Source of the DNA: Sulfurospirillum tamanense
Lineage (GTDB): Bacteria; Campylobacterota; Campylobacteria; Campylobacterales; Campylobacteraceae
Direction: 5' to 3'
Assembly: GCF_016937535.1 (NCBI RefSeq)
Contig: NZ_JAFHKK010000010.1
Span: 1 to 64,000, forward strand
Length of the DNA: 64,000 nt
This document shows, piece after piece, positions 470 through 63,675 of this stretch. Numbering within the stretch: position 1 is the first letter of the stretch; each line of letters begins with the position of its first letter. The notes beneath the pieces are model-generated. The model did not search any database and was not told the origin of the DNA. It was given only the letters and a program-made list of their open reading frames with translations. Both the position numbers and the translations under genes were made by a program.

Positions 470-913
470 CTAAAGCGCCTTAGAATCCACAATGATGCTC
501 ACGGGGCCGTCGTTGTGGATTTCTACGTCCATGGTTGCGCCAAAAACGCCGCTTTGGACGTGCGTGTGGGCTTTGCATGTAAGGATAAATTCCTCATAGA
601 GTGCCTTGGCGCGTTCTGGCGGCATGGCCCCGTCGAAACTAGGGCGACGTCCTTTTTTGATGTTGGCTGTGAGGGTAAACTGAGAGATGACAAGCAGTTC
701 GCCACTCATGTCTAAAAGCGAACGGTTCATCTTGCCTTCATTGTCTTCAAAAATCCGCATCTGCAGGATTTTTGGCACCAAAAGGGCGATGTCTTTTTCA
801 TCATCGTCTTTGAAAATCCCCAAAAGCACGTTTAGTCCCACGCCAATTTCACCGACGATTTCGCCTTCCACACGCACCGCCGAGTGGCGCACCCGTTGGA
901 GCAGTGCAATCAC
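470..913 (-). CDS. dtd: D-aminoacyl-tRNA deacylase
   Basis: 147 residues, the normal Dtd length. The enzyme hydrolyses D-amino acids (and glycine mischarged on tRNA-Ala) from tRNA in the cytoplasm. Both signature motifs are visible: SQFTL at residues 77-81, followed by KKGRRPSF, and the cross-subunit Gly-cisPro motif NDGPVS at 134-139. The start is GTG; its GTGA overlaps the stop of the DedA gene upstream, so the two are translationally coupled. A one-mismatch palindrome copy (573-582) encodes the LTCK segment near residue 112. Confidence 0.95.
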
Positions 914-1512
914 GCCGCGCGCTTTTTTTGGTAAAGATAATAAACCACGCTGAGCACCGCTACAAACCCAAGGGTGATGTAGATGATGAGCTTGAGGTAC
1001 TCTTTTACTAGCGTCTCGTTACTCCCTAGAAAATACCCAAGCGTGATAAGCACGATCATCCAAATGCTTGCCCCCAAAGAGGTGTAAAGGCAAAAGCGAA
1101 AGAGATTCATGCGCGCTAGGCCTGCGGGCAAAGAGATGTACTGGCGCACACCAGGAATGAGCCGTCCATTAAAGGTGGAGATTTCGCCGTGTTTGTTAAA
1201 GAAGACTTCTAGCTTGGTCATCTTGGTTTCATCAAACCCTACGTAGCGGCCGTATTTGAGCAAGAGTTTGCGCCCAAGCTTGACGCTAAGGTAGTAGTTA
1301 AACAGCGCGCCCGCTAGTGAGCCGCCTGTGCCCGCCAAGAGTGCACCCGCGAGGCTCATTTCACCTTTGAAGGCCAAATAACCCGCGGGTATCATCACTA
1401 CTTCGCTAGGAAAAGGGAAAAAGGAACTCTCCAAAAACATGAGGCAAAAAATCCCCACGTACCCCCACGCACCGATGGTTTCCACCAGAAATGTTACGGC
1501 ATCATGCAGCAC
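910..1512 (-). CDS. DedA-family membrane protein
   Basis: 200 residues with the VTT/SNARE-associated fold: an N-terminal hydrophobic segment, the [17 protein letters not shown] re-entrant region, the conserved [20 protein letters not shown] motif near residues 114-133, and two C-terminal membrane helices ending in a Lys/Arg tail. DedA proteins act in lipid-carrier recycling and proton-motive-force homeostasis; the substrate cannot be told here. The start is GTG. Its Shine-Dalgarno (AAGG) is the right-hand end of a TTACATGTAA palindrome (1521-1530) on this strand. It lies just downstream of valS and overlaps dtd. Confidence 0.9.
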
Positions 1513-1535
1513 GAAAAGCCTTACATGTAAAGGGC

Positions 1536-4166: not shown

Positions 4167-4496
4167 GGTGTTGCCCCTGTGTTTTTTTGTGCGGATTGTA
4201 GCAAAAAGTGCCTAATGGGGGGCTTTAATTAGGCTTTACATGTAAAGGAGAATGAAAGAGGGATAGGCGACTCTCTTTACCACAAGAAGAGGGATATTTT
4301 TAGGACTTTTTTCGGGCTCCTAAACTGACTTAAAGAAACTATCTTATATAATTTTTTATGTTTAGATTAATAAAATACTATTTAGCTTAGAGTTGATGGC
4401 TGTTTTGAAGCTTTTTAGGCGAAGTTAAGAATTGTCATTTTTCTTGCAAATATAGTAATAATAAATCAAAACATAAATTTTCTTAAAGGGTTTTTT
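4167..4496. other. 330-bp divergent intergenic region, valS / frdC
   Basis: The region separates the GTG of valS (leftward) from the ATG of frdC (rightward). It contains one exact TTACATGTAA (4236-4245) in its full CTTTACATGTAAAGG form, then a strongly AT-rich stretch (about 4320-4480) that should hold the frdC promoter. I could not pick a convincing -35/-10 pair. An AAAGGG lies just before the frdC ATG. I see no RNA gene here. Confidence 0.6.
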
Positions 4497-5261: not shown

Positions 5262-5268
5262 GCACGCC

Positions 5269-5290
5269 AAGCGGGGTTAATCCCCCGCTT
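5269..5290. terminator. candidate bidirectional terminator between frdC and msrB
   Basis: A GC-rich inverted repeat, AAGCGGGG (5269-5276) and CCCCGCTT (5283-5290), with a 6-nt loop. It lies 7 bp after the frdC stop and includes the msrB stop codon. The T-run is short on both strands, so termination strength is uncertain, but the position between convergent genes fits. Confidence 0.65.
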
Positions 5291-5633: not shown

Positions 5634-5634
5634 A

Positions 5635-5661: not shown

Positions 5662-5691
5662 TAGCTTTTTTTGGGTAAATGGACGTGCCCT

Positions 5692-7950: not shown

Positions 7951-8002
7951 AGATGTATCCTTATATGTATGAAATTAAGTAACTAAACTGCGTGAAAAAT
8001 CG

Positions 8003-8278
8003 TTACATGTAAGGAGGGTGAATGCCTGTGCGGCGAAAGCTGTAAAAGAGGCAATTGCAACGGCGGTAGCTTAAGAGTTTACTGCGACGTAAGGCGCGCT
8101 TGGTGCGGCGTTTGTAAAAGCAATTGCAGTGGCAAGGCTTGGCGGTGGAGGTTTGGGGGCAGACAACTGCTTCGAGAGGTTCAGGCGGTGGGTCGTCTTC
8201 ATCGGGTGTTGTGCCGTGGCTGTATCTGTGTGTCAAGGTGTGCGTACGAGCAAACTGGGCGCATAGGGAAATCTCCAC
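8003..8278 (-). CDS. possible small Cys-rich leader protein upstream of metE
   Basis: 91 codons from GTG, ending ...PPYM then TAA, where TACATGTAA is a copy of the palindrome read in its third frame. The C-terminal half has two similar segments, CHCNCFYKRR and RRCNCLFYSFRR, encoded by repeats of TGCAATTGC. An acidic proline-rich stretch (DEDDPPPEP) lies in the middle. The frame is open upstream to about 8350, without an ATG. It lies between the probable promoter and metE. No family is recognised, and the Shine-Dalgarno is poor. It may be a real leader peptide or a chance ORF. Confidence 0.3.
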   Translation of the reverse strand: MEISLCAQFARTHTLTHRYSHGTTPDEDDPPPEPLEAVVCPQTSTAKPCHCNCFYKRRTKRALRRSKLLSYRRCNCLFYSFRRTGIHPPYM

Positions 8279-8369: not shown

Positions 8370-8398
8370 ATTATAGCTTGTGAAGCCTTACATGTAAA
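8370..8398 (-). promoter_or_regulatory. probable promoter of the metE transcript
   Basis: On the minus strand: -35 TTTACA (8393-8398), a 17-bp spacer, -10 TATAAT (8370-8375). The -35 box lies inside a TTACATGTAA palindrome (8388-8397), so a protein bound to the palindrome would block the promoter. Confidence 0.6.
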
Positions 8399-8505: not shown

Positions 8506-8524
8506 ACACCAAAAAGGAGCTTTC

Positions 8525-9604: not shown

Positions 9605-9633
9605 CGTTAGAGCTTTTCTTTACATGTAAAGGC

Positions 9634-12204: not shown

Positions 12205-13810
12205 TGGATATCTCCTTTAAGTTAAGCAAGTATCCGCTTCCAGAAAAGGAGTTATGAGCAATGCGTTGGTGCATGGTGAAAATACTGGGCCAAATAAACA
12301 AAGGCATGGAGTAGTGTTGCTGGTAAAGGTAAAGTTCCATCTGAACAAATTTTTCCTGCGCCTTTTCCCATGACGGTGCGTGCATTGCTTCTAAAAATAA
12401 GCGGTCAGCTTCATTGTCCACTTCTATCCAGCGGTTGCCTCCCTTGCCATAAAATGCTTCAAAATGGGTGGCAACGGTGTTGGTATATAGGCCACTTTGG
12501 ACGATGGAAAGATCCCAGCGTTCACCTTCGATAGGATTGTCTGGGCCGTGGGTGTAATTTTTAATGTGTTTGTAATACTCTTGGCGTGTTGTGTATTGTT
12601 CAAACTCAACCGCTACCCCTTTGCTTTGGAGCATGGCACCAATGGCTTTGGCTAGTTTTTCTTCACTAATGTAATACCCAATTACTAAAGGTAGAGGGTT
12701 GGCTTCATTGAAACCCGCTTCGTTTAAAAGTAAAGTCGCCCTTTGCGGGTCATAAGGATAAGGTTGCAAGCCGTTGGATTCATCAAGAGGAAGAATAAAA
12801 GCTGTCATTCTGGCTGACCCTTGGGAGACAAAACGGTGTAAGGTATGGCGATCAACCAGTAGGTTGAGTGCTTCACGCACTCTGATGTCACGAAGTGGAC
12901 TATTGGGCTTGCGGGTGTTAAATAGTGTGGTAAGGTGGCTTGTGGGGTATTTTAGTGTGCGATGTAAATGCGCATGTTTTCCTAAAATGGGGAGCATGGA
13001 AGGGCTTACTGCATCAAACAGATCGGCTTTGCCTTCGATCATCCATTGATAAGCTTCTTGGGTGTTGAGCGCAGCTGGGCTGTAGATTTCAAGATTTTGA
13101 GTGCGCGGATAGCCTTTTTGCCAGTAGCGCGCGTTGGCGCGTAGCAAGGAAATAGCCCCGCCATCTTGGATTTTTGTAATCTCATAAGGGCCTGTTCCCC
13201 ACGGGCCAGCTTTAAGAATATTAGCTTGATTGCCCTGAGGGTAGCGACCATTAAAAGCCTCAAAGAAAGTTGGCGAATACATGTAAAAAGAGCGAAGGTA
13301 GACCAAAATTTGTCCCATAAAGGCGTCTACGTGAAAATACATTCGTACAGTATGGGCATCAAGGGCCTCCATGTCGCGAATCGCTAAGCGCAAATCAAGA
13401 GTAAAATAGGGGGTTTTTGTGGCCGCTGTTTCCACATACCGCTCCCAGTTTTGCAAGACCGAACTGCTGTTAAAAGGTGTGTCATCGTGAAAAACAACCC
13501 CTTGGTGCAAGTGTAGGTCGATATATTCTGGGCCAAGTGTCCACTGTTTTGCCAAATTAGGAACAAAATTGTTTTCATTGTCGACATATACCAACGGCTC
13601 TACAACCGAATTCCCCACGACCCATGAAGTGGCAATATGAGCAATGACGCGCAAGGTGTCTTGGGGTGTTTTTTTGGAGTCATTTGCGTAAGTGTTTGTT
13701 GTGAAAAAGATTGCATGTGCGCCAAAGAGTAATGTGATGCAAAAAATCCAACCTAACCCATGTCGCAGTAGTTTTAAGCGGCTCTTCTTCAGGCTTTTTT
13801 TCTTTTCCAT
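12194..13810 (-). CDS. family 5 (dipeptide/nickel-type) periplasmic binding protein, no transporter genes nearby
   Basis: 538 residues with an N-terminal basic and hydrophobic export signal (about 15-43, ending near TYANDS). The body matches SBP_bac_5: EPLVYVDNENNFVPNLAKQW, FHDDTPFNSSSVLQNW, GTGPYEI, SPLRDIRVREALNLLVDR and a C-terminal QQHYSMPLFIWP. Such proteins usually feed an ABC importer, but no permease or ATPase gene is in the window. The next gene, overlapping by 11 bp, is the HAMP-PAS-GGDEF-EAL protein. The simplest reading is a periplasmic co-sensor for that signalling protein. The ligand is unknown. AAGGAAGG precedes the ATG. Confidence 0.9.
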   Translation of the reverse strand: MEKKKSLKKSRLKLLRHGLGWIFCITLLFGAHAIFFTTNTYANDSKKTPQDTLRVIAHIATSWVVGNSVVEPLVYVDNENNFVPNLAKQWTLGPEYIDLHLHQGVVFHDDTPFNSSSVLQNWERYVETAATKTPYFTLDLRLAIRDMEALDAHTVRMYFHVDAFMGQILVYLRSFYMYSPTFFEAFNGRYPQGNQANILKAGPWGTGPYEITKIQDGGAISLLRANARYWQKGYPRTQNLEIYSPAALNTQEAYQWMIEGKADLFDAVSPSMLPILGKHAHLHRTLKYPTSHLTTLFNTRKPNSPLRDIRVREALNLLVDRHTLHRFVSQGSARMTAFILPLDESNGLQPYPYDPQRATLLLNEAGFNEANPLPLVIGYYISEEKLAKAIGAMLQSKGVAVEFEQYTTRQEYYKHIKNYTHGPDNPIEGERWDLSIVQSGLYTNTVATHFEAFYGKGGNRWIEVDNEADRLFLEAMHAPSWEKAQEKFVQMELYLYQQHYSMPLFIWPSIFTMHQRIAHNSFSGSGYLLNLKEISIAK

Positions 13811-13920: not shown

Positions 13921-15942
13921 TTACCCATCAAAGGCCTCTACGCGATTTCTTCCATTTTTCTTTGCTCTATAAAGCGCTTTATCTGCCTTTGCAATAGTCT
14001 CCATAAGAACGCTGTCATCTTTGCTAATCACTGTCAAACCAATGCTAATGGTAAGAGAGGAGATAATACCCTCAAACGGCTCTTCACTGACTTTTGCTTT
14101 TAGGGTTTGGGCAGAGGTGTATGCATCTTTTTGGGAAATATCTGGCAAAAGTACCACAAACTCTTCCCCTCCATAGCGAAAGATCAAGTCGCTTTTGCGA
14201 AAATAGGCTTTAAGGTATTGGGCTAATCTTTTTAAAACATTGTCTCCCATGAGATGCCCAGCGCAATCATTTATCTCTTTGAAGTGGTCAATGTCAATCA
14301 TCATTAAGCAAGATTCTTCTTGAGATAAACGCATTTTTTGAAGCAGGTTTAAATAGTTTACTTCGAGGGTTGATCTATTAAGAAGCCCTGTTAGGGCGTC
14401 GGTTTGGGCTGCTTCTTCAAGTAGGTCAAGGTGGATTTTCTCTTCAGTGATGTCTTCAATGATGCCTTTGTAGCCATCTACGACGCCCTCACTGTCGTGG
14501 ATGGGCATAACGGTATTTTTCATGTATTTGTCAAGAGTGTCGCAGTAAAACTCAAATGCAATGGATTCAAGGGTTCTGTCTTGGTGTAATGCCTCTAGCT
14601 GTGCGCGGAGTTCTTTTTTGTAAGAAGGCGATAAAAAAGGAAAATCATGGCTACCGATGATGTCTTGAGGCGAGAGATCAAAATACTCTTTGACTTTGGT
14701 GTTGATGTAGGTTATGTTGTATTTTGTGTCGGCAACCCAAATCAAGTAGAGAGAACTGTCTGCAACAAACCTAAAAAGTTTTTCATTTTTTTGGCTCTCT
14801 TGGGTGGCTAGTGCAATTTTTTGGTCCAGTAGGGCATTGGCTTCTTTGAGCATCTGGTTTCTTTCGTGGTTGCGAAATTCCCTGAGAAGTACACCAATGA
14901 GAAGTATTAAAAATAAAACACCAAGGGGAATAAGCACTGTTTTGTGTTGGGCGAAAAAGCCAATAGGTTTATTGATATAGCTTACATGTAAAAGACCTTT
15001 GGGAGTCTTGAGTGAAAAACGCTGCATCTCTTTGTAATCAAAAATAATTCCATCTTTGCCTATGTTTGTTTGGGTGGGGAGAGCGCTTGCCTCTTTGCCT
15101 TGCAAGACCTCCAAGGTGAGTGTTCCGGCTGTGTGCCCTTGGTTAAATCCGCTGACAATCACGCCACCTATAATCCCTTGGCCTAAAAAAAAGTCCCAAG
15201 ACCCAAATACAGGAATGGTTGGGCCAAAGAGTCTTTTGATGATAGCGATACTCTCACTGTAGCTGAAAAAATTTCCTTTTTTGTCTCGGTTAAAAGCAAG
15301 GGCATAGACGAAAATATCCTCTTTGTGCTTGTGAATAAATGCTTCTAAATCTTGGGTTTCAAAGTCCCAGAAATAGTAAAAATCTAGCTCAGGGTTAAAG
15401 CGTTTTTCCACCTCTTTTATTTCTGTGCGAATGGTGTTGGCGGTGTAGGTATTGTCTAAAACGACTACCACTTTTTTACGTTTTGGAAATAGGTCTATAG
15501 CCAAGGCGAGTGTGCCATCATAATCAACCACTTCTTTGACGCCTGTGACGTGCGGAAGGTTTGATGCCATTTGGGGGTCAAAGTTATTGATACCGCAAAA
15601 GACAACTGGAGTATTAGGGAAAAGTTCGTGTTGGTAGTCATTGAGGAAGGCCAGTGCATCATTGTCTGAGGCAATAATGGCGTCAAATGCAGTGTTGTTG
15701 TGTTTTAATAAAAAATAGCGAAAGGTTCTTTCCAGAAAAGAAGATTCAAGATTACGCTTGGAATCCAGGTATTCAAAGTAGATATTGATTTTTTCCTCAG
15801 ATGACTCAAAAGCAGCGATGATGCCTTTTGAGATGCTGTCTGTCCACTGCAATCCGTGGTGGTAAGAGTGAAGCACAAGCACGTTTTTGTCAGCAAAAAG
15901 TGTTGTGGTAAAAAAGAGTAAAAAAATCAATCTCGCAATCAT
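13921..15942 (-). CDS. periplasmic ABC_sub_bind-like sensor fused to PAS-GGDEF diguanylate cyclase
   Basis: 673 residues. A signal peptide or first helix (2-17) precedes a periplasmic domain (about 20-320) resembling ABC_sub_bind proteins (NVLVLHSYHHGLQWTDSISKG). A membrane helix follows (about 337-357), then a PAS domain (about 392-505) and GGDEF (about 515-670). The GGDEF motif is intact (RYGGEEFVVLLP) and DIDHFKEIND supplies the metal site, so it should make c-di-GMP. It lies 110 bp upstream of the binding-protein/GGDEF-EAL pair on the same strand. The Shine-Dalgarno is AGGAGGG. A palindrome copy (14982-14991) encodes LHV just before the membrane helix. Confidence 0.93.
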   Translation of the reverse strand: MIARLIFLLFFTTTLFADKNVLVLHSYHHGLQWTDSISKGIIAAFESSEEKINIYFEYLDSKRNLESSFLERTFRYFLLKHNNTAFDAIIASDNDALAFLNDYQHELFPNTPVVFCGINNFDPQMASNLPHVTGVKEVVDYDGTLALAIDLFPKRKKVVVVLDNTYTANTIRTEIKEVEKRFNPELDFYYFWDFETQDLEAFIHKHKEDIFVYALAFNRDKKGNFFSYSESIAIIKRLFGPTIPVFGSWDFFLGQGIIGGVIVSGFNQGHTAGTLTLEVLQGKEASALPTQTNIGKDGIIFDYKEMQRFSLKTPKGLLHVSYINKPIGFFAQHKTVLIPLGVLFLILLIGVLLREFRNHERNQMLKEANALLDQKIALATQESQKNEKLFRFVADSSLYLIWVADTKYNITYINTKVKEYFDLSPQDIIGSHDFPFLSPSYKKELRAQLEALHQDRTLESIAFEFYCDTLDKYMKNTVMPIHDSEGVVDGYKGIIEDITEEKIHLDLLEEAAQTDALTGLLNRSTLEVNYLNLLQKMRLSQEESCLMMIDIDHFKEINDCAGHLMGDNVLKRLAQYLKAYFRKSDLIFRYGGEEFVVLLPDISQKDAYTSAQTLKAKVSEEPFEGIISSLTISIGLTVISKDDSVLMETIAKADKALYRAKKNGRNRVEAFDG

Positions 15943-16198
15943 TTAAAACCCTCCTGCGGAGTGTTTGATTGTTTATAAATGAGTATAGCCCAAAGTGCCA
16001 ATAAAGTTCAATTTCCTTGCTGCATTTAGAAGACCGATCCGTTATTGTTATGGTATTCGCTTCGTTATGTAACAACTGTTTCAATGTGACGAAGGTATTG
16101 GGTTTTAAAACTTCGTGTGAGCGCTTACATGTAAAGGCCTTTTAACCCTGTCTGGGTATAATACCGTCCTTTAAATTTTTACCCAAAAGAGTCTGCAT
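15943..16198. other. divergent intergenic region, GGDEF gene / UvrD-like helicase
   Basis: 256 bp with one exact TTACATGTAA (16125-16134, as GCTTACATGTAAAGGCC). A -10 box TATAAT (16157-16162) points toward the helicase gene. Nothing else is recognised. Confidence 0.5.
16157..16162 (+). promoter_or_regulatory. -10 box of the helicase operon
   Basis: TATAAT, 36 bp before the helicase ATG and 23 bp after a TTACATGTAA palindrome. No good -35 is visible. Confidence 0.5.
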
Positions 16199-19725: not shown

Positions 19726-19762
19726 AACCTTTATTTTTTGTATCTTTACATGTAAAGGAGGC

Positions 19763-20984: not shown

Positions 20985-21015
20985 TTACATGTAAGGAAAA
21001 AATCCTTACATGTAA
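20985..21015 (-). terminator. htpG terminator built from two TTACATGTAA copies
   Basis: Two exact palindromes (20985-20994 and 21006-21015) are separated by GGAAAAAATCC. Together they make a perfect 13-bp stem with a 5-nt loop. It lies 8 bp after the htpG stop, and on that strand it is followed by a T-rich tract (TCCTTTTTCTTT), as expected of an intrinsic terminator. Confidence 0.7.
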
Positions 21016-22897: not shown

Positions 22898-22929
22898 AGT
22901 GCTCCTTTTACATGTAAATTTTTAGTGTA

Positions 22930-45972: not shown

Positions 45973-46070
45973 GCAAAACCCACTTTGTGACAAAATTGGG
46001 GGGATTTTAACATAGGTTGTCTAAAAGTGCCATTTTGTGTAGAATTCTCCATTTACATGTAAGGATACTG

Positions 46071-48820: not shown

Positions 48821-48996
48821 AAATGTCCTTTGTTGAGGAAAATAAATAGAAAAGATTTTAGCGAAAGTTACCCTTAGGTTTGTTTGAAGGGTTTTACATG
48901 TAAAGGATTTGTATTTTGTCGGGGTTTTATTGAGAGAGAGTGCGGATCATTTAAAAAGTAGTGTTAGAATGAGCAAGCAAAATAAAAGAGAAAAAT

Positions 48997-50738: not shown

Positions 50739-50757
50739 TAACGCTTTACATGTAAGG

Positions 50758-51187: not shown

Positions 51188-51260
51188 GAAACGCCTTTTG
51201 GGGAAGATGGGAAGAGTATTTTAGCCTATTTAGGGGGATTTTACGGGTACATGTAAAGGT

Positions 51261-51771: not shown

Positions 51772-51816
51772 GCGGGCAAGCGCATTGTGTTTGGTTTTTA
51801 CATGTAAGGATAAAAA

Positions 51817-52092: not shown

Positions 52093-52248
52093 GCGGTTTG
52101 TAGCCTTACATGTAAAGATATTTGAAGTGGCTTATTGAATGCAATGCTGATGGATAGATATGTGGTATTTTTGAAGAGCTCAATTTCAACTATTTATACT
52201 CTTAATAGGATTTAGCATTATGGTATCGTATTTACAAAAAGGAATAAA

Positions 52249-52857: not shown

Positions 52858-52989
52858 TTTATTTTCAAAAGATTGGAAATAAAATGCAGACAACGCCCAT
52901 CCTTCTCTGTATCTAACCCCATTTAACCCTCCTTAAAAGAAGCTTTAGGTACAATCGCGGTTTTAAACCTTTACATGTAAGGATGCGTT

Positions 52990-54522
52990 GTGAGAGCATT
53001 GATAAGCGTAAGTGACAAGACGGGCATTGTGGAGTTTGCCCAAGGATTAGTAGCACTTGGATGGGAGATCGTCTCTACAGGCGGCACTTTTAAGCAACTC
53101 CAAGAAGCGGGCGTTAGCGCCGTTGAGATTAGCGAAGTGACCAAGTTTCCTGAAATGTTTGATGGCAGGGTCAAGACCCTCAACCCCTACATTCACGGGG
53201 GGATTTTGCACCGTAGGGATGAACCCTTACATGTAAAGACCGCCCACGAACACGGCATCAGAGGCATCGACCTTGTGTGCGTGAACCTCTACCCCTTCAA
53301 AGAAACCATCGCCAAAACGGACGATTTTGATACCATCATCGAAAACATCGACATCGGCGGCCCTGCCATGGTGCGCAGTGCGGCCAAAAACTTCCAAGAT
53401 GTCCTCATCGTCACCGACGTTTTGGACTACGACGCGGTGCTTGAAGCTCTAAAAGAAGGTGCCGATAGCCTAGCGTTTCGCCGTGGTTTGATGATTAAGG
53501 CGTTCGAGCACACGGGCGCGTATGATGCGATGATTGCCAACTACATGAATGAGCGTTTCAACGGCGGTTTTGGAGCCAAGCAGTTCATCGTCGGCACCAA
53601 AGCATTCGACACGCGTTATGGCGAAAACCCTCACCAAAAGGGCGCGTTGTACGAGTTTGACTACTTTTTTTCCAACAACTTCAAAGCCCTCAAAGGCGAA
53701 GCTAGTTTTAACAACATGACCGACATCCACGGCGCGGTCAAAATCGCCGCGGCCTTTGGCGAAGCCCCCGCAGTGTCCATCATCAAGCACGCAAATCCCT
53801 GCGGTTTTGCTATCAAAAACACGCTTTTAGAAAGCTACACCGAAGCCCTCAAATGCGACCCTGTGTCGGCCTTTGGTGGCGTGGTCGCTATCAACGGCAA
53901 GCTAGACAAAGCCCTAGCCGAGAAAATCAACGAAATCTTCATCGAAGTCATCATCGCGGCTAATGTGGACGAAGACGCCCTAGCGGTCTTTGAGAGCAAA
54001 AAACGCATCAAAATCTTTACCCAAGAAAGCCCCTATTTGGTGCTGAGCAACGACGCGTACGACTTTAAACACATCGATGGCGGGTTTGTTTACCAAGAAG
54101 CCGACGCGGTGGGCGAAGACGAAGTTACAAATGCCGAGCAAAAAAGTGCCCGCAAAGCCTCAGTCCAAGAGTTCGCCGACCTTGAAATCGCCTACAAAGT
54201 CGCCAGCCTCACTAAATCTAACTGCGTCGTGTACGTCAAGGACAGCATGATGGTAGGTATTGGCATGGGGATGACGAGTCGTGTGGACGCGGGCAAATGC
54301 GCCCTGTTAAAAGCCAAAGAGATGGGGCTAGAAGTAGCAGGATGTGCCATGGCCAGCGAAGCGTTTTTCCCTTTCCGCGACAGCGTGGACGCCGCGGCCA
54401 AAGCGGGCGTCAAAGCCATCATCCAACCCGGCGGCAGTATCCGTGATAATGAAGTCATCGCCGCGGCCGATGAGCACGGCATGGCACTGTACTTTACAGG
54501 GATTCGTCACTTTTTACATTAA
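52990..54522 (+). CDS. purH: bifunctional AICAR transformylase / IMP cyclohydrolase
   Basis: 510 residues, full length. IMP cyclohydrolase part: [36 protein letters not shown]; transformylase part: [21 protein letters not shown] and the C-terminal [14 protein letters not shown]. It performs the last two steps of purine synthesis. The start is GTG after TTTACATGTAAGGATGCGTT, so the palindrome (52971-52980) again merges with the ribosome-binding site. A further copy (53227) encodes LHV. Confidence 0.98.
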
Positions 54523-55883: not shown

Positions 55884-56232
55884 AAACGCGCTAAAAGTTG
55901 CTATGTTTGTGTTTTTGGTGGGCTTTGGACTCCACTTTGTGGCAGGGCATTTGTACAAAATCTTGCCCTTTTTGGTGTGGTATGAGTTCATTGCGCCACT
56001 AGTTGGCAAGCAAAAAGTCCCTATGTTGCACGAGATGATTGTGGAGCGTTATGCCTACGCGCAACTTATTTTAGGCGTTCTTGGCACAACGCTTTTTGCT
56101 CTGGGGATGACTTTACATGTAAGGGTTGTGGAGTTTGGTGGCGCGGTGCTTTTGGCACTGAGCGGCTGGGCGCTTATGGTGGTGCTTTACCGCGCTTATG
56201 GGTTTTCAAAATGGAAGGAAAAAACATGCTAA
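55870..56232 (+). CDS. membrane protein, C-terminal part in the shifted frame
   Basis: About 120 residues that continue the preceding gene after the G9 tract: LGGDENALKVAMFVFLVGFG, then VAGHLYKILPFLVWYEF, a motif with His, Lys and Pro seen in related membrane proteins, then two more helices. No ribosome-binding site or start codon suits separate translation. It therefore belongs to the upstream gene in the alternate tract length. Palindrome 56113-56122 encodes LHV here. The stop overlaps the start region of the DUF59 gene. Confidence 0.75.
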   Translation: MGGDENALKVAMFVFLVGFGLHFVAGHLYKILPFLVWYEFIAPLVGKQKVPMLHEMIVERYAYAQLILGVLGTTLFALGMTLHVRVVEFGGAVLLALSGWALMVVLYRAYGFSKWKEKTC

Positions 56233-56519
56233 CAAAAGAGACAATTTACGAAGCGTTAAAAACAGTCATCGACCCCGAGGTGGGGTTTGACATCGTTAAT
56301 CTTGGACTCATTTATGATGCGCGTATCGAAGGGACGCACGTGGAGGTGGACATGACCCTTTCCACACGCGGATGTCCGCTTCATGAACTGCTTAAACAAT
56401 GGGCTAAAGAAGCAGTAGAGAAGCTTCCCGAAGTTCTTACATGTAACATTAATATCGTATGGGAACCTGCGTGGAACATTACCATGGCAAGCAAAGAAGT
56501 TAAAAAAGCATTGGCATAA
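56226..56519 (+). CDS. DUF59/MIP18-family metal-sulfur cluster assembly factor
   Basis: 97 residues. VIDPEVGFDIVNLGLIYDA, then VDMTLSTRGCPLHELL with the conserved Cys, and the C-terminal WEPAWNITMAS are the PaaD/SufT-like signatures. Such proteins help deliver Fe-S clusters. ATG 56226 follows GGAAGGAAAA; an in-frame ATG five codons upstream is less well placed. Palindrome 56437-56446 encodes LTCN. It closes the FNR-box operon. Confidence 0.9.
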   Translation: MLTKETIYEALKTVIDPEVGFDIVNLGLIYDARIEGTHVEVDMTLSTRGCPLHELLKQWAKEAVEKLPEVLTCNINIVWEPAWNITMASKEVKKALA

Positions 56520-56657: not shown

Positions 56658-58247
56658 ATGAAGCGCTCCATGGGGATAAAGATCATCGCTATGCTTGCAG
56701 GTGTGTTGTTGGTGAGTTTTGGGGTGATGCAATTTGTGTTCATCAGTGAGTTTAAAAACTCTTCATTGCAGCAGAGCGAGAATAATCTCAACATGCTAGG
56801 CAAATCGGTGTTTCAAACCATTCGCAATGCGATGAATTTTGGCGACCCTGTCATCATCCAAAAGGCTATTGAGGATGTGGCTGAGATTGAAGGGATTGCA
56901 TCCATTACAATCCACAAATCTCAAGAGGTTATTAATGCTTTTGGTTTGAACGCGATTATCTCAACAGACCCGTTGATTGTAGAGCAATTTAACGCTCCAC
57001 GAAGCTTTAATCTTGAAGTTAAGACTGATGAGGGTCATTTTTTGCGCCTTGTACAGCCTATGATAGCCCAAGAGGATTGCTTGGCCTGTCATGGCACCTC
57101 CAAGCACGGAGAGGTGCTTGGGGTGATGGATATGCGGTACTCTTTTGCCTTGGTGGATGAGGATATTCGCCAGCGAAGTATGAAATTTATCTTCATTTTT
57201 AGTTTCTTTTTCGTTGCTATTACACTTCTTTTGCTTTACGCTTTGAGGCAGATGGTAGGGAAGCCTCTTAGAGAGCTTTTGGTGCGCTCTTGTGATTTGG
57301 CTAGTGGCAACGGTGATTTGACCGCGCGCGTTGTGGTAAAAAGTGAAGATGAGATCGGGCAAGTGGGGCAACATGTAAATGTTTTTATTGAAAAAATTCA
57401 CCACACTGTTACAGAGGCCCAAGGAGTGGCGCACCGCGTGGAGGCCACTAGCAGCACCTTAAATCAAAATGCTTCAGGGTTGCTTCAGAGTGCCAAAACT
57501 CAAAACATACAAGTGCAAGCATCATATGCACTGACTAAAGAAGTAGAAGAAGAATTAGGGGTGTCAGAAAAACTGGCATTAAAAACCGTTGAGGATAGCA
57601 TGGCCTCTTATGAGGTTTTGACAGATATGGTTAATGCGTTAGAAATTGTGGTGGAACACATTGCAAGTTCTAGCAGCAAAGAGCAAGAGATGGCCCATAA
57701 AATCACTGCTGTCGTAACCCAGACCGAACAGATTAAAGGGGTGCTAGGCATGATTAAGGACATTGCTGATCAAACCAATCTTTTGGCTCTTAATGCCGCT
57801 ATCGAAGCGGCGCGCGCGGGTGAGCATGGGCGGGGGTTTGCGGTCGTGGCTGATGAGGTGCGAAAATTGGCTGAGCGCACTCAAAAATCTTTAGCCGAAA
57901 TCGACGTCACTATAGGTGTCATCGTCCAAGGCGTGATGGATTTGAGTGAAAATATGCAATACAATGCTGGGCAGATTGAGGAGATTGCTTCTAGTGCCCA
58001 TGGTGTTATGAATAAAGCGACACAAACAAAAGACCGCACCAAGGAGACTATTAATGTTTCTCAAAAATCCTCCCAAAAGGCCGTAGAGATATCAGCAACC
58101 ACCAAGACGCTCATGGAAAAAATGCACACAACTTTGCAAGCTTCGCAGGATAATGAAAGCGTAGCAAAAGTGTTGCTGGAGATGTCAAAAGAATTGCAAG
58201 AGGCCTCTGCAAAACTCGAAAAAGACCTCTCAAGCTTCAAGGTTTAA
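56658..58247 (+). CDS. methyl-accepting chemotaxis protein with periplasmic haem-c motif
   Basis: 529 residues. Membrane helix (about 6-29), periplasmic sensor (about 30-174), second helix (176-196), HAMP (about 198-250) and the signalling domain with [20 protein letters not shown] and [16 protein letters not shown]. Within the sensor, C141-L-A-C144-H145 is a canonical c-haem attachment site. The fold around it ([15 protein letters not shown]) is like known haem-c sensor domains. It should respond to redox state, oxygen or NO. ATG 56658 is chosen because the signal helix starts here. Confidence 0.93.
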
Positions 58248-60172
58248 AGCCCTAAAGACTCCCGCTTTTCTTCGATTTCCAAGAACCTCTCAATGAGGGG
58301 CTCGAGGGCTTCTTCCTTTACATGTAAGCGTTCAGTGAGGGTGGTGATGCCCTCTTTTTGGTAACATTCAGGGTTGCCAAGACACGCTTTGATGGACGCT
58401 ATTTCTTCTTCGAGGGTTTGGATTTTGGAGGGCAGGGTTTCGTGTTCTTGTTGTTCTTTGTAGCTAAGTTTCGCGCCCCCTGTTTTTTGTTTTTTAGTTG
58501 CCTGAGGCGAGGCGGGCGAGGGAGTGCTAGCCTCGGCCACATCTTGTTCAAATTCCAAAAATTCCGTGTAGCTTTGGTAACTCTCTTCAATTGCGCCATT
58601 GCCCGTAAAAATCAGTAATTTTTTAGCAATTTTATCGACAAAATAGCGGTCATGGCTCACCACTAAAACGGCCCCTTGAAACGATTCGATGAACGATTCA
58701 AGCACGTTAATGGTAGGAATATCGAGGTCATTGGTGGGCTCATCTAAAATGAGACAATCCACAGGCTGCGCAAACAGTAACGCAAGCGCTACGCGGTTTT
58801 TTTCTCCACCGCTTAAAAGACCGATTTTTTTGTCTAGATATTCTTTAGGAAATAAAAACTGTTTTAAATAGCCGTATACATGTAAGTTGCTTCCGCGCAC
58901 TTCTACGCGGTCGCCCCCGTTGAGGCAAAAGGTTTCTAGGAGGTTTTTTTCATCATCGAGCATGACGCGTTGTTGGTCAAAATAACCCACGCTAAATTCT
59001 CCTCGTTTAAGGACGCCCTCATCGGGCAAAAGTGTCCCAAGAAAAAGGCGCAAGAGCGTGGATTTTCCCGCGCCGTTTTTACCCACAATGGCGATGCGGT
59101 CGTTTTGTAAAATGCGCGTTGTAAAATCATCGATGAGCCGTTTGTCACCCAAGGTTTTGCCTACACCTTGAAGTTCAAAAAGCATCTTTTGGCGGTTGGT
59201 GGATTTGTCTTGATTAAAAGCATGTTTGGCGCGTTCGAGTTCTAGGTAGATTTTGCGCAGTTGGCCAGGATTTTTTTTGGCAGCCTCGCGCATCTCCATG
59301 ACCCGTTGCTTGCGTCCTTCGTTGCGTTTTAGTCTGGCCTTTACACCCCGACGCAACCACGCTTCTTCACCTTTGAGGTGTTTAAGAAGTACATCGTGCT
59401 GTTTTTTCATGGCGTGCAAAAGCAGTTCTTTGGCGGTTAAATAAGCTTCGTATCCACCCTCAAAACTGCGCAATTTGCATTCATCGATCTCCACACTTCG
59501 TGTGGCAATGCGCTCGATGAAATAACGGTCGTGAGAGATAAACACAAGCGTGACATTCTCTTTAAGAAGCATCTCTTCCAAAAAAGCCACCATGTACACA
59601 TCAAGGTGGTTGGTAGGCTCATCAAGGAGTAAAATATCGGGTTTTTTAAGAATGAGCCCTGCTAGTGCCACGCGACGCTGTTCACCGCCACTTAGAAGCG
59701 AAACAGGGGTGTGTTCAAAGCTTTTAAGGGCAAATTCTTGCATCACGCGCTCGATTTTATCGTCCAAATTCCACGCATTGTGCAAATCTAAGTAGCTTGC
59801 TAACTTGCTTTGGCGCTCCAAAAGAACGGCATCTTGAGGCGAAATAGCAAGGGCTTCGTTGATAGCTTCAAAGGATTTTCTGGCACTATAAAGGCGCTCT
59901 AGCTCTTTTTCGATAGCATCACGCACGGTGTCTTTTGGGTCAAATACGGGGACTTGGGCGAGCATTTCAACGCTAAGACCGCTTTGGAGAATCCGCCGCC
60001 CTGCGTCAGCTTCGAGAGTGCCGTTGATGATTTTCATGAGGGTAGACTTGCCTCCACCATTTTTTCCGATGATGGCAATGCGTTCGCCTTGGTTGATAAA
60101 CAGGCTCACCTCTTCAAGGATTTTTTGGGTTTCGTAACTTTTGCTAATCTCTAATAAATCCAGTAAGGCCAC
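58244..60172 (-). CDS. ABC-F family ATPase (Uup-like)
   Basis: 642 residues, two ABC domains without membrane parts. First domain: [36 protein letters not shown]; second: [38 protein letters not shown] Lys/Arg-rich inter-domain linker and a C-terminal coiled coil (about 560-640) are present. ABC-F proteins act on the ribosome or, for Uup, in genome stability. The start is GTG after GAAGGAAG. Palindromes encode LHV at 58318 and 58876 (one mismatch). Confidence 0.95.
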
Positions 60173-60283
60173 GCCGCTTCCTTCGCAATAGGGTTTTGGG
60201 AAGTCTAACCAAAATGGGCTGTAGGAGCGATGAAAAAACCACAGATGTGGTAAGATAACGCCCAGAAAACCAAAGGAAACAGT

Positions 60284-61591
60284 GTGAAAACAACCCTTTC
60301 AGCCAAACGCTACAAAAGCCAAGGGCGGTACGAAGCGCAAGAGGCTCAAGAAAACCGCACGCCATTTTTGACCGATTATGACCGGATTATTTTTTCTAAC
60401 CCTTTTCGCAGGCTTTCTAAAAAAACCCAAGTGCACCCCCTTTCTAAAAACGACCACGTGCACAACCGTCTGACCCATTCGCTAGAGGTGGCAAGCGTGG
60501 GACGGACACTGGGGCTTGGAGTAGGGCGATATTTGGAAGCGCAAGAGGGGTTTGGTCACTCTCCTTATGAAGTTGCGGCGATTGTGCAAAGTGCGTGCTT
60601 GGCCCACGACATTGGCAATCCGCCCTTTGGGCATGCGGGCGAAGAAATCATCAAAGAGTGGTTTGCCACCCATCAAAATACGCCATTAATGGAAGAAATT
60701 AATCCAGAACAAAGGGCGGATTTTTTGTGTTTTGATGGTAATGCACAGAGTTTACGCATTGTCACTCAGCTTGAAAACCACGCCTATGCAGGAGGAATGC
60801 GCCTGACGCTTTCAACCCAAGCGGCTATGATTAAATATCCGTGGGAAGCGTGCGATGCGCGCTCAAAAGGAAAGAAATTTAGTTATTTTCAAAGCGAAAA
60901 GAGCATTGCTAGGACGATTTTTGAAGAGTTTGATTTGGTGCAAGAGGGTGTTTTTGTACGTCACCCTTTCTCGTACCTTATGGAGGCTGCGGATGATATT
61001 TGCTATGCCCTTTTAGACATTAAAGATGCGGTTGAGCTAAACATGCTTGAAGTGGCTAATTTGGAACATATATTTTTGCCTTTGTGCGGAAAAAAGGCTT
61101 ACGAAGAGACGCTAGGTAGCAGCGCCATGAGTGATTTTCAAAAGGTTTCAAGGTTGTGCGCCTTTGCCATTGGGCGATTGAGCGAACATGCGATTGAGAC
61201 GTTTGTGGACCATAAGCTTTTTGTGCCAAGAACGGATGTGAAAGACCTCATCTCACTCTTTTCACACAAAGCGCTGCAGGAGGGTTTGGCGGCAGCTAAG
61301 GAGCTAGGCCATAATCATATCTTTAATGAGCCACGCAAGATTGAGCTAGAACTTGGGGCGTATCGGACTATTGGGATTTTGTTGGAAGATTTGATAAATG
61401 CGGCGTATGCTTTACATGTAAACCAAAAAACCTTCAAAACCGAACGCGCATTGACGCTCATGGGTAACGACGCGCCAAGGACTTCTCAGAGTTTGTATGA
61501 AAAATACCAAGCGGTGTTAGATTACATTGTAGGGATGACAGACAACTACGCCACCCGCTTGGCCGGACAGTTAGCAGGGCTTGGTCGCTAG
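60284..61591 (+). CDS. dgt: deoxyguanosinetriphosphate triphosphohydrolase
   Basis: 435 residues. NRLTHSLEVASVGRTLG and CLAHDIGNPPFGHAGE give the HD-domain metal ligands; HPFSYLMEAADDICYALLDI supplies another. It hydrolyses dGTP to deoxyguanosine and triphosphate, and is probably dimeric or hexameric. The start is GTG after AAAGGAAA. It diverges from the ABC-F gene by 111 bp. Palindrome 61412 encodes LHV. Confidence 0.95.
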   Translation: MKTTLSAKRYKSQGRYEAQEAQENRTPFLTDYDRIIFSNPFRRLSKKTQVHPLSKNDHVHNRLTHSLEVASVGRTLGLGVGRYLEAQEGFGHSPYEVAAIVQSACLAHDIGNPPFGHAGEEIIKEWFATHQNTPLMEEINPEQRADFLCFDGNAQSLRIVTQLENHAYAGGMRLTLSTQAAMIKYPWEACDARSKGKKFSYFQSEKSIARTIFEEFDLVQEGVFVRHPFSYLMEAADDICYALLDIKDAVELNMLEVANLEHIFLPLCGKKAYEETLGSSAMSDFQKVSRLCAFAIGRLSEHAIETFVDHKLFVPRTDVKDLISLFSHKALQEGLAAAKELGHNHIFNEPRKIELELGAYRTIGILLEDLINAAYALHVNQKTFKTERALTLMGNDAPRTSQSLYEKYQAVLDYIVGMTDNYATRLAGQLAGLGR

Positions 61592-61651
61592 ATAAAATTT
61601 ATTATTTAGGAAGTTTTGATAAAATAACTTCTTTTACATGTAAGGAAAAAA

Positions 61652-62842
61652 ATGCTGAGTATATTAGGAACGTTGTATTTTGTTTATGTGCTGATAAAGC
61701 TTTATATCGCTACCCAAGAGATAGGTTTTGTGGCAAAAGCACAACATCAAAACGCGGTGATTCTCTCCCCATCAAGCTTTCTTAAAGCCGCGCGCTACAA
61801 GATTGCCTCAGAGCGTTTTGGTATGGTGAGTACACTAGTGGATTATGGGCTGTTTTTGTTTTGGATTGGGTACGGGTTGCGCACCCTTGAGGGCTGGCTT
61901 ATCACCAATGGTGGCGTGTGGGAGAGCGTGGTGTTTGTGTATGCGTTTATTGGGGTTAATTACCTTGTGGGGCTTCCGCTGGATATTTACAGCACTTTTT
62001 TTAAAGACAAAGCCTTTGGGTTTAGCACCATTGATGCCAAAACGTACGCTCTTGATCAGTTAAAGGCTATGGCACTTTTTGTGGTAGCAGGTGGCGCTAT
62101 TGTAGCGCTTGTGGCATGGATTATCCTCTCTTTTGCTTCGTGGTGGTTGTGGGGATTTGGGGCTATTTTTGCGGTGGTGTTGTTTATTAACATGATTTAT
62201 CCCACGCTCATTGCGCCCATCTTTAACCGTTTTACACCCCTAGAAAATCCTGAGCTTTCTGCGTCCATCGAAAGCCTTTTGCAAAAAGCAGGGCTCAAAA
62301 GTAGCGGCGTGTTTATGATAGATGCCAGCAAGCGGGACAAGCGGCTTAATGCGTACTTTGGGGGGCTGGGAAAATCAAAACGGGTAGTGCTCTTTGACAC
62401 CTTGGTGGAAAAACTAAGCAAATCTGAACTTTTGGCGGTGCTTGGGCATGAGCTGGGGCACTTTAAACACAAAGACATGCTCAAAAATGTAGCCATGAGT
62501 GCGTTTATGCTTTTGGTTATGTTTGGCCTTTTTGGAAACTTGCCTGCATCGGTTTACGAAGCCTTACATGTAAGCATGAGCCCGCACAGTACCATCGCGC
62601 TTTTTTTGTTACTCTCGCCGTTGGTTTCATTTGTGATGATGCCGCTTTTTGGGGCCATGAGTCGCCATAACGAATATGCCGCAGATGCGTACGGGAGCGC
62701 GTGCGAAAGCAAAGAGGCTCTTAAAAATGCGTTGATGAAACTAGCCGATGAAAACAAGAGTTTCCCTATGTCACACCCATTGCAAATTGCTTTTTACCAT
62801 ACCCATCCGCCCTTGGTTGAGCGTTTAAAAAGGCTAGAATAG
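61652..62842 (+). CDS. M48 family metalloprotease (Ste24-like)
   Basis: 396 residues. Four N-terminal membrane helices (about 1-190), an ADAYGSACESKEAL segment with the third zinc ligand, and the active site HELGH in VLGHELGHFKHKD near residue 270. This is a membrane zinc protease of the CAAX-protease Ste24 type; its substrates here are unknown. TTTACATGTAAGGAAAAAA precedes the ATG, so palindrome 61634-61643 again supplies the ribosome-binding site. Its stop overlaps prmC by one base. Confidence 0.93.
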   Translation: MLSILGTLYFVYVLIKLYIATQEIGFVAKAQHQNAVILSPSSFLKAARYKIASERFGMVSTLVDYGLFLFWIGYGLRTLEGWLITNGGVWESVVFVYAFIGVNYLVGLPLDIYSTFFKDKAFGFSTIDAKTYALDQLKAMALFVVAGGAIVALVAWIILSFASWWLWGFGAIFAVVLFINMIYPTLIAPIFNRFTPLENPELSASIESLLQKAGLKSSGVFMIDASKRDKRLNAYFGGLGKSKRVVLFDTLVEKLSKSELLAVLGHELGHFKHKDMLKNVAMSAFMLLVMFGLFGNLPASVYEALHVSMSPHSTIALFLLLSPLVSFVMMPLFGAMSRHNEYAADAYGSACESKEALKNALMKLADENKSFPMSHPLQIAFYHTHPPLVERLKRLE

Positions 62843-63675
62843 TGCAGATTAAAGAGGCATTGCGCACCGCAGCCCAAATGCTTTCATGGGTTGAAAACCC
62901 CCAAAAAGAAGCTGCGTTGTTGTTGTGCGCACATTTACATGTAGAGCGTACGTGGCTTTTGCTTCATGATGCTGATAGCCTAAAAGATGCGGAGGGCTAT
63001 TTTGCGCTGATAAAACGCCGTCATGCGCGCGAACCTCTAGAGTACATCACCGGAACAGCTTCGTTTTATTCGCGTACGTTTTTAGTAGACGAGGGCGTAT
63101 TGGTGCCAAGACCCGAGACGGAACTACTGGTGGACGTGGTAGCTGGCTTGCTCAAAAAAGACGAAACACCTCGGATTCTTGAGGTGGGTGTGGGAAGCGG
63201 GATTATTTCAGTGATGTTGGCGGTGTTGTTTCCTAGAGCCACCTTTGTTGCTACGGATATTTCTTCCAAAGCCTTGGCTAACGCACAAAAAAACGCGCAC
63301 CTGTTCGGTGTGGCATCGCGCATTGAATTTGTGCAAACGTCTTATTTTGAAGGAGTGGAGGGGGCTTTTGATGTGTTGGTCTCCAACCCTCCTTACATAA
63401 CAAGAGAAGAAATTTTAGACGCCCACGTGCTAAAAGAACCCCATGGGGCACTTTTTGGCGGAGAAAAGGGCGATGAAATGCTAAAAGTGCTTTTAGAAAA
63501 AGCCTCTTGCGCGCCAATAAAACATGTAGCTTGCGAAATGGGCTGGGATCAAAAGGCGTCTATGGAAGAGACACTAAACACCCTTGGCGCCCAAGAGATT
63601 AACTTTTACCAAGACCTTGCGGGGTTGGACCGAGGGTTTAGTGCAACATTAAAGGAGAAAACATGCACGCGATGA
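62842..63675 (+). CDS. prmC: release factor glutamine methyltransferase
   Basis: 277 residues. The SAM site LEVGVGSGIISVMLA and the catalytic VSNPPYITREE are diagnostic. It methylates the GGQ glutamine of RF1 and RF2. The start is GTG, overlapping the protease stop (TAGTG). A one-mismatch palindrome (62935) encodes LHV. It overlaps the next gene by 13 bp. Confidence 0.96.
   Translation: MQIKEALRTAAQMLSWVENPQKEAALLLCAHLHVERTWLLLHDADSLKDAEGYFALIKRRHAREPLEYITGTASFYSRTFLVDEGVLVPRPETELLVDVVAGLLKKDETPRILEVGVGSGIISVMLAVLFPRATFVATDISSKALANAQKNAHLFGVASRIEFVQTSYFEGVEGAFDVLVSNPPYITREEILDAHVLKEPHGALFGGEKGDEMLKVLLEKASCAPIKHVACEMGWDQKASMEETLNTLGAQEINFYQDLAGLDRGFSATLKEKTCTR

Follow-up and report, generated by a model that had tools for sequence, protein, structure and literature searches.

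The 64,000-nt stretch of Sulfurospirillum tamanense DNA analysed here (the window) is densely marked by a ten-base palindrome, TTACATGTAA, built on the eight-base core TACATGTA, and by analogy with known systems we see about an even chance that this palindrome acts as an uptake or self-recognition signal, perhaps tagged by methylation. The window contains 35 exact copies of TTACATGTAA versus 0.03 expected, a number reached by none of 100 dinucleotide shuffles and in agreement with the count and the excess of several hundred fold given in the initial annotation, while the core is found 44 times (88 when both strands are counted). Across the 2.46-Mb genome, TTACATGTAA is present in 1,059 copies and a reversed control word in one, and TACATGTA in 1,480 copies compared with 27 for its control. 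Genome-wide exact copies are thus as numerous as those of the uptake sequences DUS and USS (hundreds to thousands) and as dense as those of a HIP1-type palindrome. Over 432 kb of the genome, the ten-base form exceeds a second-order Markov model about 300-fold (192 seen versus 0.64 expected), and for the core 255 occurrences are seen versus 4.8 expected; chance and base composition are ruled out as the source of the excess by the shuffles and by this model. No earlier report of the palindrome was found in the open-access literature searched.

Copies in the window lie both within and between genes, with no strand assigned to any site, and the gene names initially given to several of them (mnmE, purL, purH, dgt, PatB and AOR) are all confirmed. 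Exact copies are found within a diguanylate cyclase-like gene (14982-14991), an open reading frame (24674-24683), mnmE (37339-37348), purL (39943-39952), a ThiF/MoeB-like gene (40293-40302, 40411-40420 and 40734-40743), an aldehyde ferredoxin oxidoreductase-like gene (42750-42759; the assignment is a match under the family cut-off), a PatB-family gene (44068-44077), purH (53227-53236), an ABC-F (Uup-like) gene (58318-58327), dgt (61412-61421) and an HtpX-like gene (62564-62573). At 22908-22917 htpG lies close downstream, at 52971-52980 purH lies downstream, and at 51798-51807 and 61634-61643 a likely ribosome-binding site follows immediately. Two copies 21 bp apart (20985-21015), 8 bp beyond the 3' end of htpG, are predicted by folding to form a joint terminator-like hairpin with a 13-bp stem. 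Further exact copies are located at 1521-1530, 4236-4245, 8003-8012, 8388-8397, 9620-9629, 16125-16134, 19746-19755, 31334-31343, 33700-33709, 40953-40962, 46053-46062, 48894-48903, 50746-50755, 52106-52115, 56113-56122 and 56437-56446.

Allowing one mismatch raises the number of matches in the window to 46, adding 11 where about ten had been noted before. Nine of these 11 deviate at the outermost base only and leave TACATGTA intact (2896-2905, 13277-13286, 28464-28473, 29628-29637, 43897-43906, 47270-47279, 51247-51256, 58876-58885 and 62935-62944), and two deviate inside (573 and 18309). Inner single-mismatch forms of the ten-base palindrome are unenriched over 432 kb (8 seen versus 15.3 expected), so that recognition of the core looks all-or-none; here, as in Sulfurospirillum, the 8-mer TACATGTA is the stretch in which no change is tolerated. 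The strict core differs between lineages, since in six f20/f16 genomes taken together forms with a relaxed end base of the 8-mer are more frequent than expected (34 versus 14), a point against the uptake reading. Beyond the core, the symmetrical extension described in the initial annotation dissolves into a graded consensus: the exact 16-mer CCTTTACATGTAAAGG does not occur in the window, and it represents half-site preferences that, counted from the 8-mer core in G000, amount to C at -3 in 64%, T at -2 in 57% and T at -1 in 86%. These flanks vary from lineage to lineage, and the information around the sites drops to background within about 10 bp, with the exception of a phasing of A and T.

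The palindromes are strongly kept in place. Among aligned orthologous cores, 475 of 673 are identical at a nucleotide identity of 70-75%, compared with 10.8% of 36,465 composition-matched words, which answers in the affirmative the initially raised question of conservation at orthologous sites. The conservation extends to synonymous choices, because where the amino acid is conserved the codon GTA is kept in 269 of 324 cases inside the motif versus 26% elsewhere, and TAC in 76 of 76 versus 54%. Motif density is 3.8-fold higher in non-coding DNA, with a peak between convergent genes, and five close intergenic pairs lie 4-10 bp off the 3' end of a gene (one of these pairs was folded). Close pairs as such are not clearly more frequent than chance predicts (12 gaps of at most 60 bp versus 8.9 expected), which counts against an uptake role.

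The abundance of copies between genes and the hairpins formed by some pairs might also come from a mobile repeat of the MITE or REP type scattered over the genome, and a by-product of mutation bias is a related explanation; both are extremely improbable and, at this resolution, already refuted. Of about 32,000 site pairs, just 12 have flanking sequence in common (E 1e-3), and the copies are therefore not a MITE; they share no longer consensus, as MITE or REP elements would, and are not part of a longer mobile repeat. Gaps are found in 94 of the 445 aligned cores that are not identical, so that most non-conserved orthologues are ungapped, with no sign of inserted repeats. A mutation bias, for its part, should raise the one-mismatch neighbours too, yet these are not raised in G000 or in Sulfurospirillum.

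The motif marks the genus of the window as well as 40 of 44 Sulfurospirillaceae and some scattered other genomes, and the replacement motifs CTACATGTAG and TATCATGATA occur inside the same family, so that dialects differ by clade as they do for DUS and USS. The palindrome is absent from Campylobacter, which over-represents TAAATTTA, one form of RAATTY. Two components of a transformation machine, ComEC and a T2SSF-type protein, are each present in 77 of 80 genomes; as genomes with low motif counts are included, the machinery does not predict motif number, and both are ruled out as discriminating genes.

If the palindrome is an uptake signal, it would serve self-recognition in natural transformation much as the sequences of Neisseria and Pasteurellaceae do, but in palindromic form: alleles with the core would enter cells and recombine more frequently than alleles that have lost it, and biased conversion would maintain about one core per 1.7 kb. 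We know of no uptake experiment for any motif bearer, and the uptake sequences known to us are non-palindromic, whereas the core found here is a perfect palindrome and not a strand-oriented word. The likeness to DUS and USS lies in about 1,000-2,000 copies per genome, a strict core, clade dialects and conservation in place; the terminator-like pairs recall DUS, and the AT-rich segments, here about 11-12 bp apart and on either side of the core, recall those of USS, spaced by about one helical turn. For DUS, 71% of copies are exactly conserved, single-mismatch forms are reported without gain in transformation and inverted pairs serve as terminators (PMC2397512), and USS have cores that differ by subclade and AT-rich segments whose centres lie 12 bp from each other (PMC1626085). 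The palindrome differs from both in its symmetry, in A/T phasing on both sides, in an unrelated core sequence and in belonging to another phylum, and its uptake role is putative. Aliarcobacter butzleri, which is not an established motif bearer, transforms with a preference for its own DNA, and does so with PCR fragments of 344 bp as well (PMC8308473), which means that methylation is not always required there.

A closer precedent within the order is provided by Campylobacter jejuni, in which RAATTY methylation by CtsM is required at the first uptake step (PMC8468864). The initial statement that no such element is known in Campylobacterota is matched by the literature searched as regards the palindrome itself, but a methylated palindrome required for uptake is known in this relative. 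The two systems share an over-represented palindrome, a D12-class methyltransferase and an uptake machine of the same type, and they differ in that the C. jejuni site is a degenerate six-base site versus an exact eight-base core here. CtsM itself we take to be a D12-class methyltransferase. In three Campylobacter-like genomes, D12 proteins that are presumably CtsM-like (a label taken from size and Pfam) form a clade apart from the 330-aa D12 proteins, with only 25-31% identity to those of G000 and G055. Besides the 330-aa protein used in this comparison, G000 encodes a second PF02086 protein, C36.

Methylation is also central to the proposal, which we consider rather unlikely, that an adenine methyltransferase marks and maintains TACATGTA and that the sites serve replication, repair, recombination or expression and not uptake. 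The model for this is HIP1, a palindrome of similar density, the abundance of which tracks cognate orphan methyltransferases and the deviations of which fall on outer bases (PMC4390886). Similarities to HIP1 are one palindrome copy per 1-2 kb, the outer-base position of the deviations seen here, other palindromes in some relatives and a possible orphan methyltransferase, a D12-class protein of about 330 aa that is encoded in G000, G001, G012 and 31 of 44 Sulfurospirillaceae (one as a split match), with no obvious restriction partner at seven loci in which the open reading frames were inspected by eye. A related gene is found on two plasmids of S. diekertiae (annotated in pieces on one of them), in both cases with the same four cores inside. 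Autoregulation of the methyltransferase by cores in or near its gene was considered and rejected, because 27 genes show no consistent pattern, with four cores in the plasmid gene and at most two in its chromosomal counterparts, some of which have none. A search for a solved structural relative of the D12 protein gave none at E 1e-3, and N6_N4_Mtase (PF01555) is rejected as the writer, being missing in 10 of 18 high-count genomes searched.

The D12 gene partly co-varies with motif copy number. In Sulfurospirillum genomes with a completeness of 90% or more, those with D12 (n=14) contain 657-1727 copies and those without (n=5) 109-1201 (p 0.0006), and in the genus g27 presence of the gene also goes with more copies (p 0.02), both values ignoring kinship; no such relation is found in g39 (p 0.5) or g57 (p 0.73). 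Furthermore, the high-count genomes G121, G152, G204 and G283 are without an intact gene, and G068, G342 and G071 possess one yet have few copies. Of the seven Sulfurospirillum genomes without D12, five have double the number of T2SSF matches seen in nearly all the rest, so the loss of D12 may be a single event. In sampled sequence of D12-lacking G204, G121 and G152 one-mismatch forms are not in excess, and this persistence of the motif without decay weighs against a methylation-dependent uptake signal as well; in D12-lacking G109 and G355 a slight and equivocal excess of transitions is seen (23 versus 19.3 and 5 versus 3.1, respectively). The HIP1 sequence is unrelated, the link to a methyltransferase is partial in the present case, and HIP1 on two cyanobacterial plasmids lacks the helically phased flanks of the present palindrome. 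The assignment originally made, to an uptake-sequence-like or HIP-like element, stands as the best fit, with the genome-wide excess and the lack of a longer repeat behind it, but of the co-occurring genes envisaged the universal competence gene ComEC is present without being discriminating, and for the candidate methyltransferase the association is partial.

In addition to their exact cores, the palindromes are phase-locked to an A/T wave with a period of 11-11.5 bp (about 11.2), which is symmetric about the dyad and detectable about 100 bp away from it. The wave amplitude at palindromes is 0.048 in G000 and 0.057 in Sulfurospirillum, whereas words matched for AT pattern give 0.002-0.022 and one-mismatch cores 0.006-0.015 (one further control set held too few sites, 0 and 4), and the pattern-matched controls exclude a general 11-bp wave without phase-locking. 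Amphipathic protein helices are excluded as the source of the wave, since within genes third codon positions show it most strongly and it occurs around intergenic sites as well. To our knowledge, rotational phase-locking has not been described for any such element, the literature consulted being that on USS and on DNA bending, and as a physical feature it bears directly on the identity of the reader. Relaxed DNA has about 10.5 bp per turn; the period and the reach of the wave suit supercoiled DNA in the cell better than relaxed fragments, which counts against the uptake reading.

Such a wave is what would be anticipated if the palindrome were a dyad on which an architectural protein or a topoisomerase docks, with about 100-200 bp of chromosome wrapped around that protein, an explanation that we likewise regard as improbable, though no more so than the HIP-like one. 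Its dyad symmetry, its presence around intergenic sites and the even distribution of cores along the G194 chromosome (8-16 in each of eight 20-kb samples) are in line with this, as is the comparable symmetric pattern of E. coli gyrase sites, which is 130 bp long with a 10.75-bp period (PMC6379681). Both the gyrase binding pattern and BIMEs resemble the palindrome in having A/T periodicity symmetric about a centre. However, to a large extent the long wave belongs to the genome as a whole, and the palindromes are locked onto it: at more than 300 bp from any site it has lost little of its strength (17.4 versus 23.2 in G000 and 12.9 versus 15.8 in Sulfurospirillum; in G121 the vicinity of sites has a 2.7-fold stronger wave), it occurs in motif-free Campylobacter, and around intergenic sites it fades past 50 bp (12 of 200 controls reach the same level). 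The gyrase pattern, moreover, is degenerate and without an exact core, and a universal enzyme fits poorly with a lineage-limited motif having dialects and changing flanks; no candidate protein was found, and diffuse, redundant sites are unlikely to be under such strong site-by-site selection. Of the other motifs, TATCATGATA with its 22 sites shows no wave, and TAAATTTA in Campylobacter has a weak one at best (period 10.5 and z 2.8, compared with z 3.7 for a control word in Campylobacter).

A wider reading, speculative and itself rather improbable, would have Campylobacterota using a palindromic self-code read both in the cell and at uptake, with TACATGTA at a fixed rotational setting of the 11.2-bp wave, tag and nucleoid path being co-designed, and order-wide dialects (CTACATGTAG, TATCATGATA and the CtsM site in Campylobacter) the writers and readers of which change. 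As far as we know, only two bacterial families have well-documented true uptake sequences, and iterated palindromes are mainly cyanobacterial. Another phylum in which a thousand palindromes are kept exactly, lineages have their own dialects and uptake in a relative is proven to depend on methylation would offer a natural series for the origin, change and loss of a code. In practical terms, transformation of Sulfurospirillum, some strains of which dehalogenate pollutants, may require tag-bearing DNA. The motif is also found in viruses: a 14-base form occurs in at least 120 stretches of viral contigs, and among the matches listed 3 of 80 viral loci have 3-6 copies of TTACATGTAA in 4-12 kb.

The over-representation of the palindromic 10-mer TTACATGTAA claimed in the initial annotation is borne out, with 35 copies in the 64-kb window against a mean of 0.03 and a maximum of 1 in 100 dinucleotide shuffles, and it extends to the genome as a whole (G000; 2,456,696 bases), which contains 1,059 copies and a single copy of the reversed word. 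In 432 kb of this genome, 192 copies are seen where a second-order Markov model expects 0.64, and the next palindromic 10-mer reaches 13 copies. The inner 8-mer core, TACATGTA, occurs 1,480 times in G000, compared with 27 times for its reverse, and is a unit without tolerance of change in this genome. In the same 432 kb, single-mismatch forms of TTACATGTAA exceed expectation at the outermost base alone (56 seen versus 2.6 expected), with no enrichment at inner positions (8 versus 15.3), and one-mismatch forms of the 8-mer lie at 0.53-0.96 of expectation in G000, G194 and a pool of named Sulfurospirillum-type loci, where the core itself is enriched about 39-53-fold. Given this excess of core and 10-mer, the scaled advantage would be about 4-6 per site, all-or-none, if the count represents a balance of mutation and selection (or drive). 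Six pooled genomes of families f20 and f16 show a looser requirement at the end base of the 8-mer (34 seen, 14 expected), as does G019 (6 against 1), so that ACATGT may be the kernel common to the lineages. Bases outside the core are preferred to varying degrees, with T at -1 in 86% of sites, T or C at -2, and C at -3 in 64%, and the exact 16-mer named by the initial annotation is absent from the window.

A longer mobile repeat such as a MITE is rejected as the source of the copies, as no common sequence is found in the flanks past the few graded bases; among 255 sampled sites, flanks are similar in 12 of about 32,000 pairs (E 1e-3), several of which join sites no more than 2.5 kb apart. The copies are, moreover, conserved at orthologous positions. 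In a set of 28 sequences (the window, 20 named loci and 7 loci of the related genome G001), in which alignments overlap and pairs are not independent, 475 of 673 cores are exact at 70-75% identity, compared with 10.8% of 36,465 composition-matched words, as are 208 of 245 at 80-85% identity, compared with 24% of such words; over all identity bins, 1,105 of 1,550 aligned cores match exactly and 94 of the other 445 are gapped. Codons inside the motif were also compared with those elsewhere in genes at conserved amino acids: CAT is retained in 293 of 296 cases (70% elsewhere), GTA in 269 of 324 (26%), TAC in 76 of 76 (54%), ACA in 49 of 65 (43%) and TGT in 78 of 87 (68%). Because synonymous codons are kept, the constraint on the motif acts on the DNA.

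With simple longest-ORF gene calls, 183 of the 255 cores sampled in G000 are genic and 72 fall in the non-coding 9%, a 3.8-fold higher density, with 3.8 cores per kb between convergent genes, 2.2 between divergent and 1.9 between co-directional genes, and 0.47 within genes. Cores in this sample are spaced a little more regularly than by chance (mean gap 1.6 kb, coefficient of variation 0.88). An excess of close pairs as such is not clear, since 12 neighbouring pairs lie no more than 60 bp apart where 8.9 are expected. Seven of these are in genes; the five intergenic pairs have a spacing of 17-23 bp, and each ends 4-10 bp from a gene's 3' end. The palindrome pair at 20985-21015 of the window is predicted to form a hairpin with a 13-bp stem (-17.3 kcal/mol, z -6.3), and a terminator role is also described for inverted pairs of the neisserial uptake sequence DUS (PMC2397512).

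The window's genome falls in an uncultured genus placed near Campylobacter and Sulfurospirillum, its closest named locus being the MAG Kmv14 (HtpG fragment 96% identical). In a survey of 416 genomes of the order, TTACATGTAA is high in this genus (1,059 and 1,084 copies) and in genus g12 (804), while G019 (78) and G007 (54), the latter an incomplete genome, have remnant numbers. At least 150 cores occur in 40 of 44 genomes of f20, the Sulfurospirillaceae (reversed controls 16-74), with fewer in G109, G313, G367 and G071, and f16, probably the Arcobacteraceae, has scattered members with 99-848 cores. Core counts are at background in the remaining genera of the window's family f1, probably Campylobacter, and three named Campylobacter loci contain no cores. 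The flanks of the motif are lineage dialects: genus g39 has the form CTACATGTAG, and G202 has 848 cores and only 96 copies of TTACATGTAA. G071 has 28 cores but 166 copies of TATCATGATA instead, a second, separate over-represented palindrome that is 161-fold enriched in two named Campylobacterales loci (L049 and L050; 17 copies in 44 kb), occurs 1-39 times in each of 79 other genomes searched and shows no phased flanks in 22 sites. TAAATTTA, a form of the motif RAATTY of the C. jejuni methyltransferase CtsM, shows 10-16-fold enrichment in C. concisus and G004 and 2-5-fold enrichment in C. majalis, G002, G005 and G006, and lies outside the top words of G008. Three viral contigs (L327, L318 and L329) carry 3-6 copies of TTACATGTAA each in 4-12 kb; they may represent phages or proviruses whose hosts bear the motif, or contain host DNA. 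In the open-access literature, TTACATGTAA was not found, TACATGTA with 'methyl' returned only papers unrelated by title and start of abstract, and the matches listed for iterated palindromes, uptake sequences, Sulfurospirillum and Arcobacter included no such element.

Around the core runs a symmetric A/T wave of period 11-11.5 bp that has its maxima roughly 7, 19, 30 and 41 bp from the core edge. None of 400 codon-phase-preserving shifts reaches it in any of four sets (z 11.9, 18.7, 5.8 and 4.6), and it is detectable 95-128 bp out (z 4.3, 556 pooled sites). In the 50 bp next to 180 intergenic sites the wave has an amplitude of 0.06; farther out it weakens, to a level that 12 of 200 controls reach. 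In genes (378 sites) it is stronger at third codon positions, with amplitudes of 0.076 near the core and 0.054 more than 50 bp away, than at first and second positions (0.037 and 0.014), which speaks against protein helices as its cause. An A/T wave of 11.2-11.3 bp is found genome-wide, also far from sites, and in Campylobacter without the motif; in G000 and Sulfurospirillum, therefore, the palindromes are mostly not the source of the wave and are placed at a fixed phase of it. The amplitude at the motif is 0.048 in G000 and 0.057 in Sulfurospirillum, versus 0.002-0.022 for AT-pattern-matched words, same-pattern palindromes and one-mismatch cores. On two cyanobacterial plasmids (125 and 30 sites), the iterated palindrome HIP1 shows no such phased flanks. 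The 11.2-bp pitch points to DNA inside cells. A nucleoid or topology role for the palindrome seems rather improbable to us.

By analogy, the most likely reading of the palindrome is an uptake sequence, because a strict core per 1-2 kb is combined with lineage dialects, strong conservation at orthologous positions, pairs that resemble terminators and A/T segments in helical register, a combination also found in the Pasteurellaceae USS (PMC1626085) and in DUS (PMC2397512). Other studies describe DNA kinking at the uptake of uptake sequences (PMC7811141), uptake in C. jejuni limited to DNA with the CtsM-methylated motif (PMC8468864; PMC8627207), and transformation of Aliarcobacter butzleri with its own DNA favoured (PMC8308473). 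ComEC and a T2SSF protein are each present in 77 of 80 genomes, the three misses for each being assemblies 66-90% complete. Counting against uptake are the palindromic form, the 11.2-bp pitch and an imperfect link to a methyltransferase.

That enzyme, an adenine methyltransferase of the D12 class with about 330 aa, is found in G000 (contig C40, 8010-8987), G001, G012 and 31 of 44 Sulfurospirillaceae, and no obvious restriction partner lies beside it in seven loci whose open reading frames were read by eye. Its gene lies near trmA in the window's genus and in g57 of f20, and adjoins, in four f16 genomes, a gene that we take from its sequence to be tsaD; these neighbourhoods suggest old vertical inheritance. 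In Sulfurospirillum genomes of 90% or higher completeness, carriers of the gene have 657-1,727 cores (n=14), more than the 109-1,201 of non-carriers (n=5; p 0.0006, ignoring descent). Presence is related to core number in g27 (p 0.02, ignoring descent), with no relation in g39 and g57; when 69 genomes are divided at 150 cores, the odds ratio is 6 (p 0.0015, ignoring descent). G121, G152, G204 and G283 have many cores and no intact D12 gene; C-terminal remnants in G283 (C10, 84221-84487; 887 cores) and G095 (C60, 11410-11616; 8 cores) are consistent with gene loss. The D12 enzyme is a lead as candidate writer of the motif. A HIP-like methylation role for the palindrome is in our view unlikely. 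PF01555 enzymes were rejected as writer, being absent from 10 of 18 high-count genomes.

A plasmid of S. diekertiae (L292/L293; G055, C2) and pSDIE1 (L432) each carry a D12 gene that contains the same four TACATGTA cores, the pSDIE1 copy being annotated in pieces; of the 14 cores on the 39.9-kb plasmid, only 4 are flanked by the chromosomal TT..AA. Four T2SSF matches are found in the D12-lacking Sulfurospirillum genomes G144, G204, G259, G355 and G384, possibly marking one subclade, versus two in most D12-bearing ones; G319 has six. Two frames beside the D12 gene of G085 (L133, 533-4637) resemble Cas1 and Cas9. GATC (272 seen versus 1,283 expected), CCGG (160 versus 631) and CCCGGG (2 versus 40) are strongly avoided in 432 kb of G000, as is typical of past or present restriction systems. 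An unrelated repeat family, the 9-mer AACCGACAC, has 19 copies in 31 kb of G036 (L184/L136) versus 0.12 expected. Finally, window positions 57733-57900, in a 548-aa gene, have some 30 matches in G001, with 76-84% identity, a large paralogous set that we assume to be the signalling domain of chemotaxis receptors.
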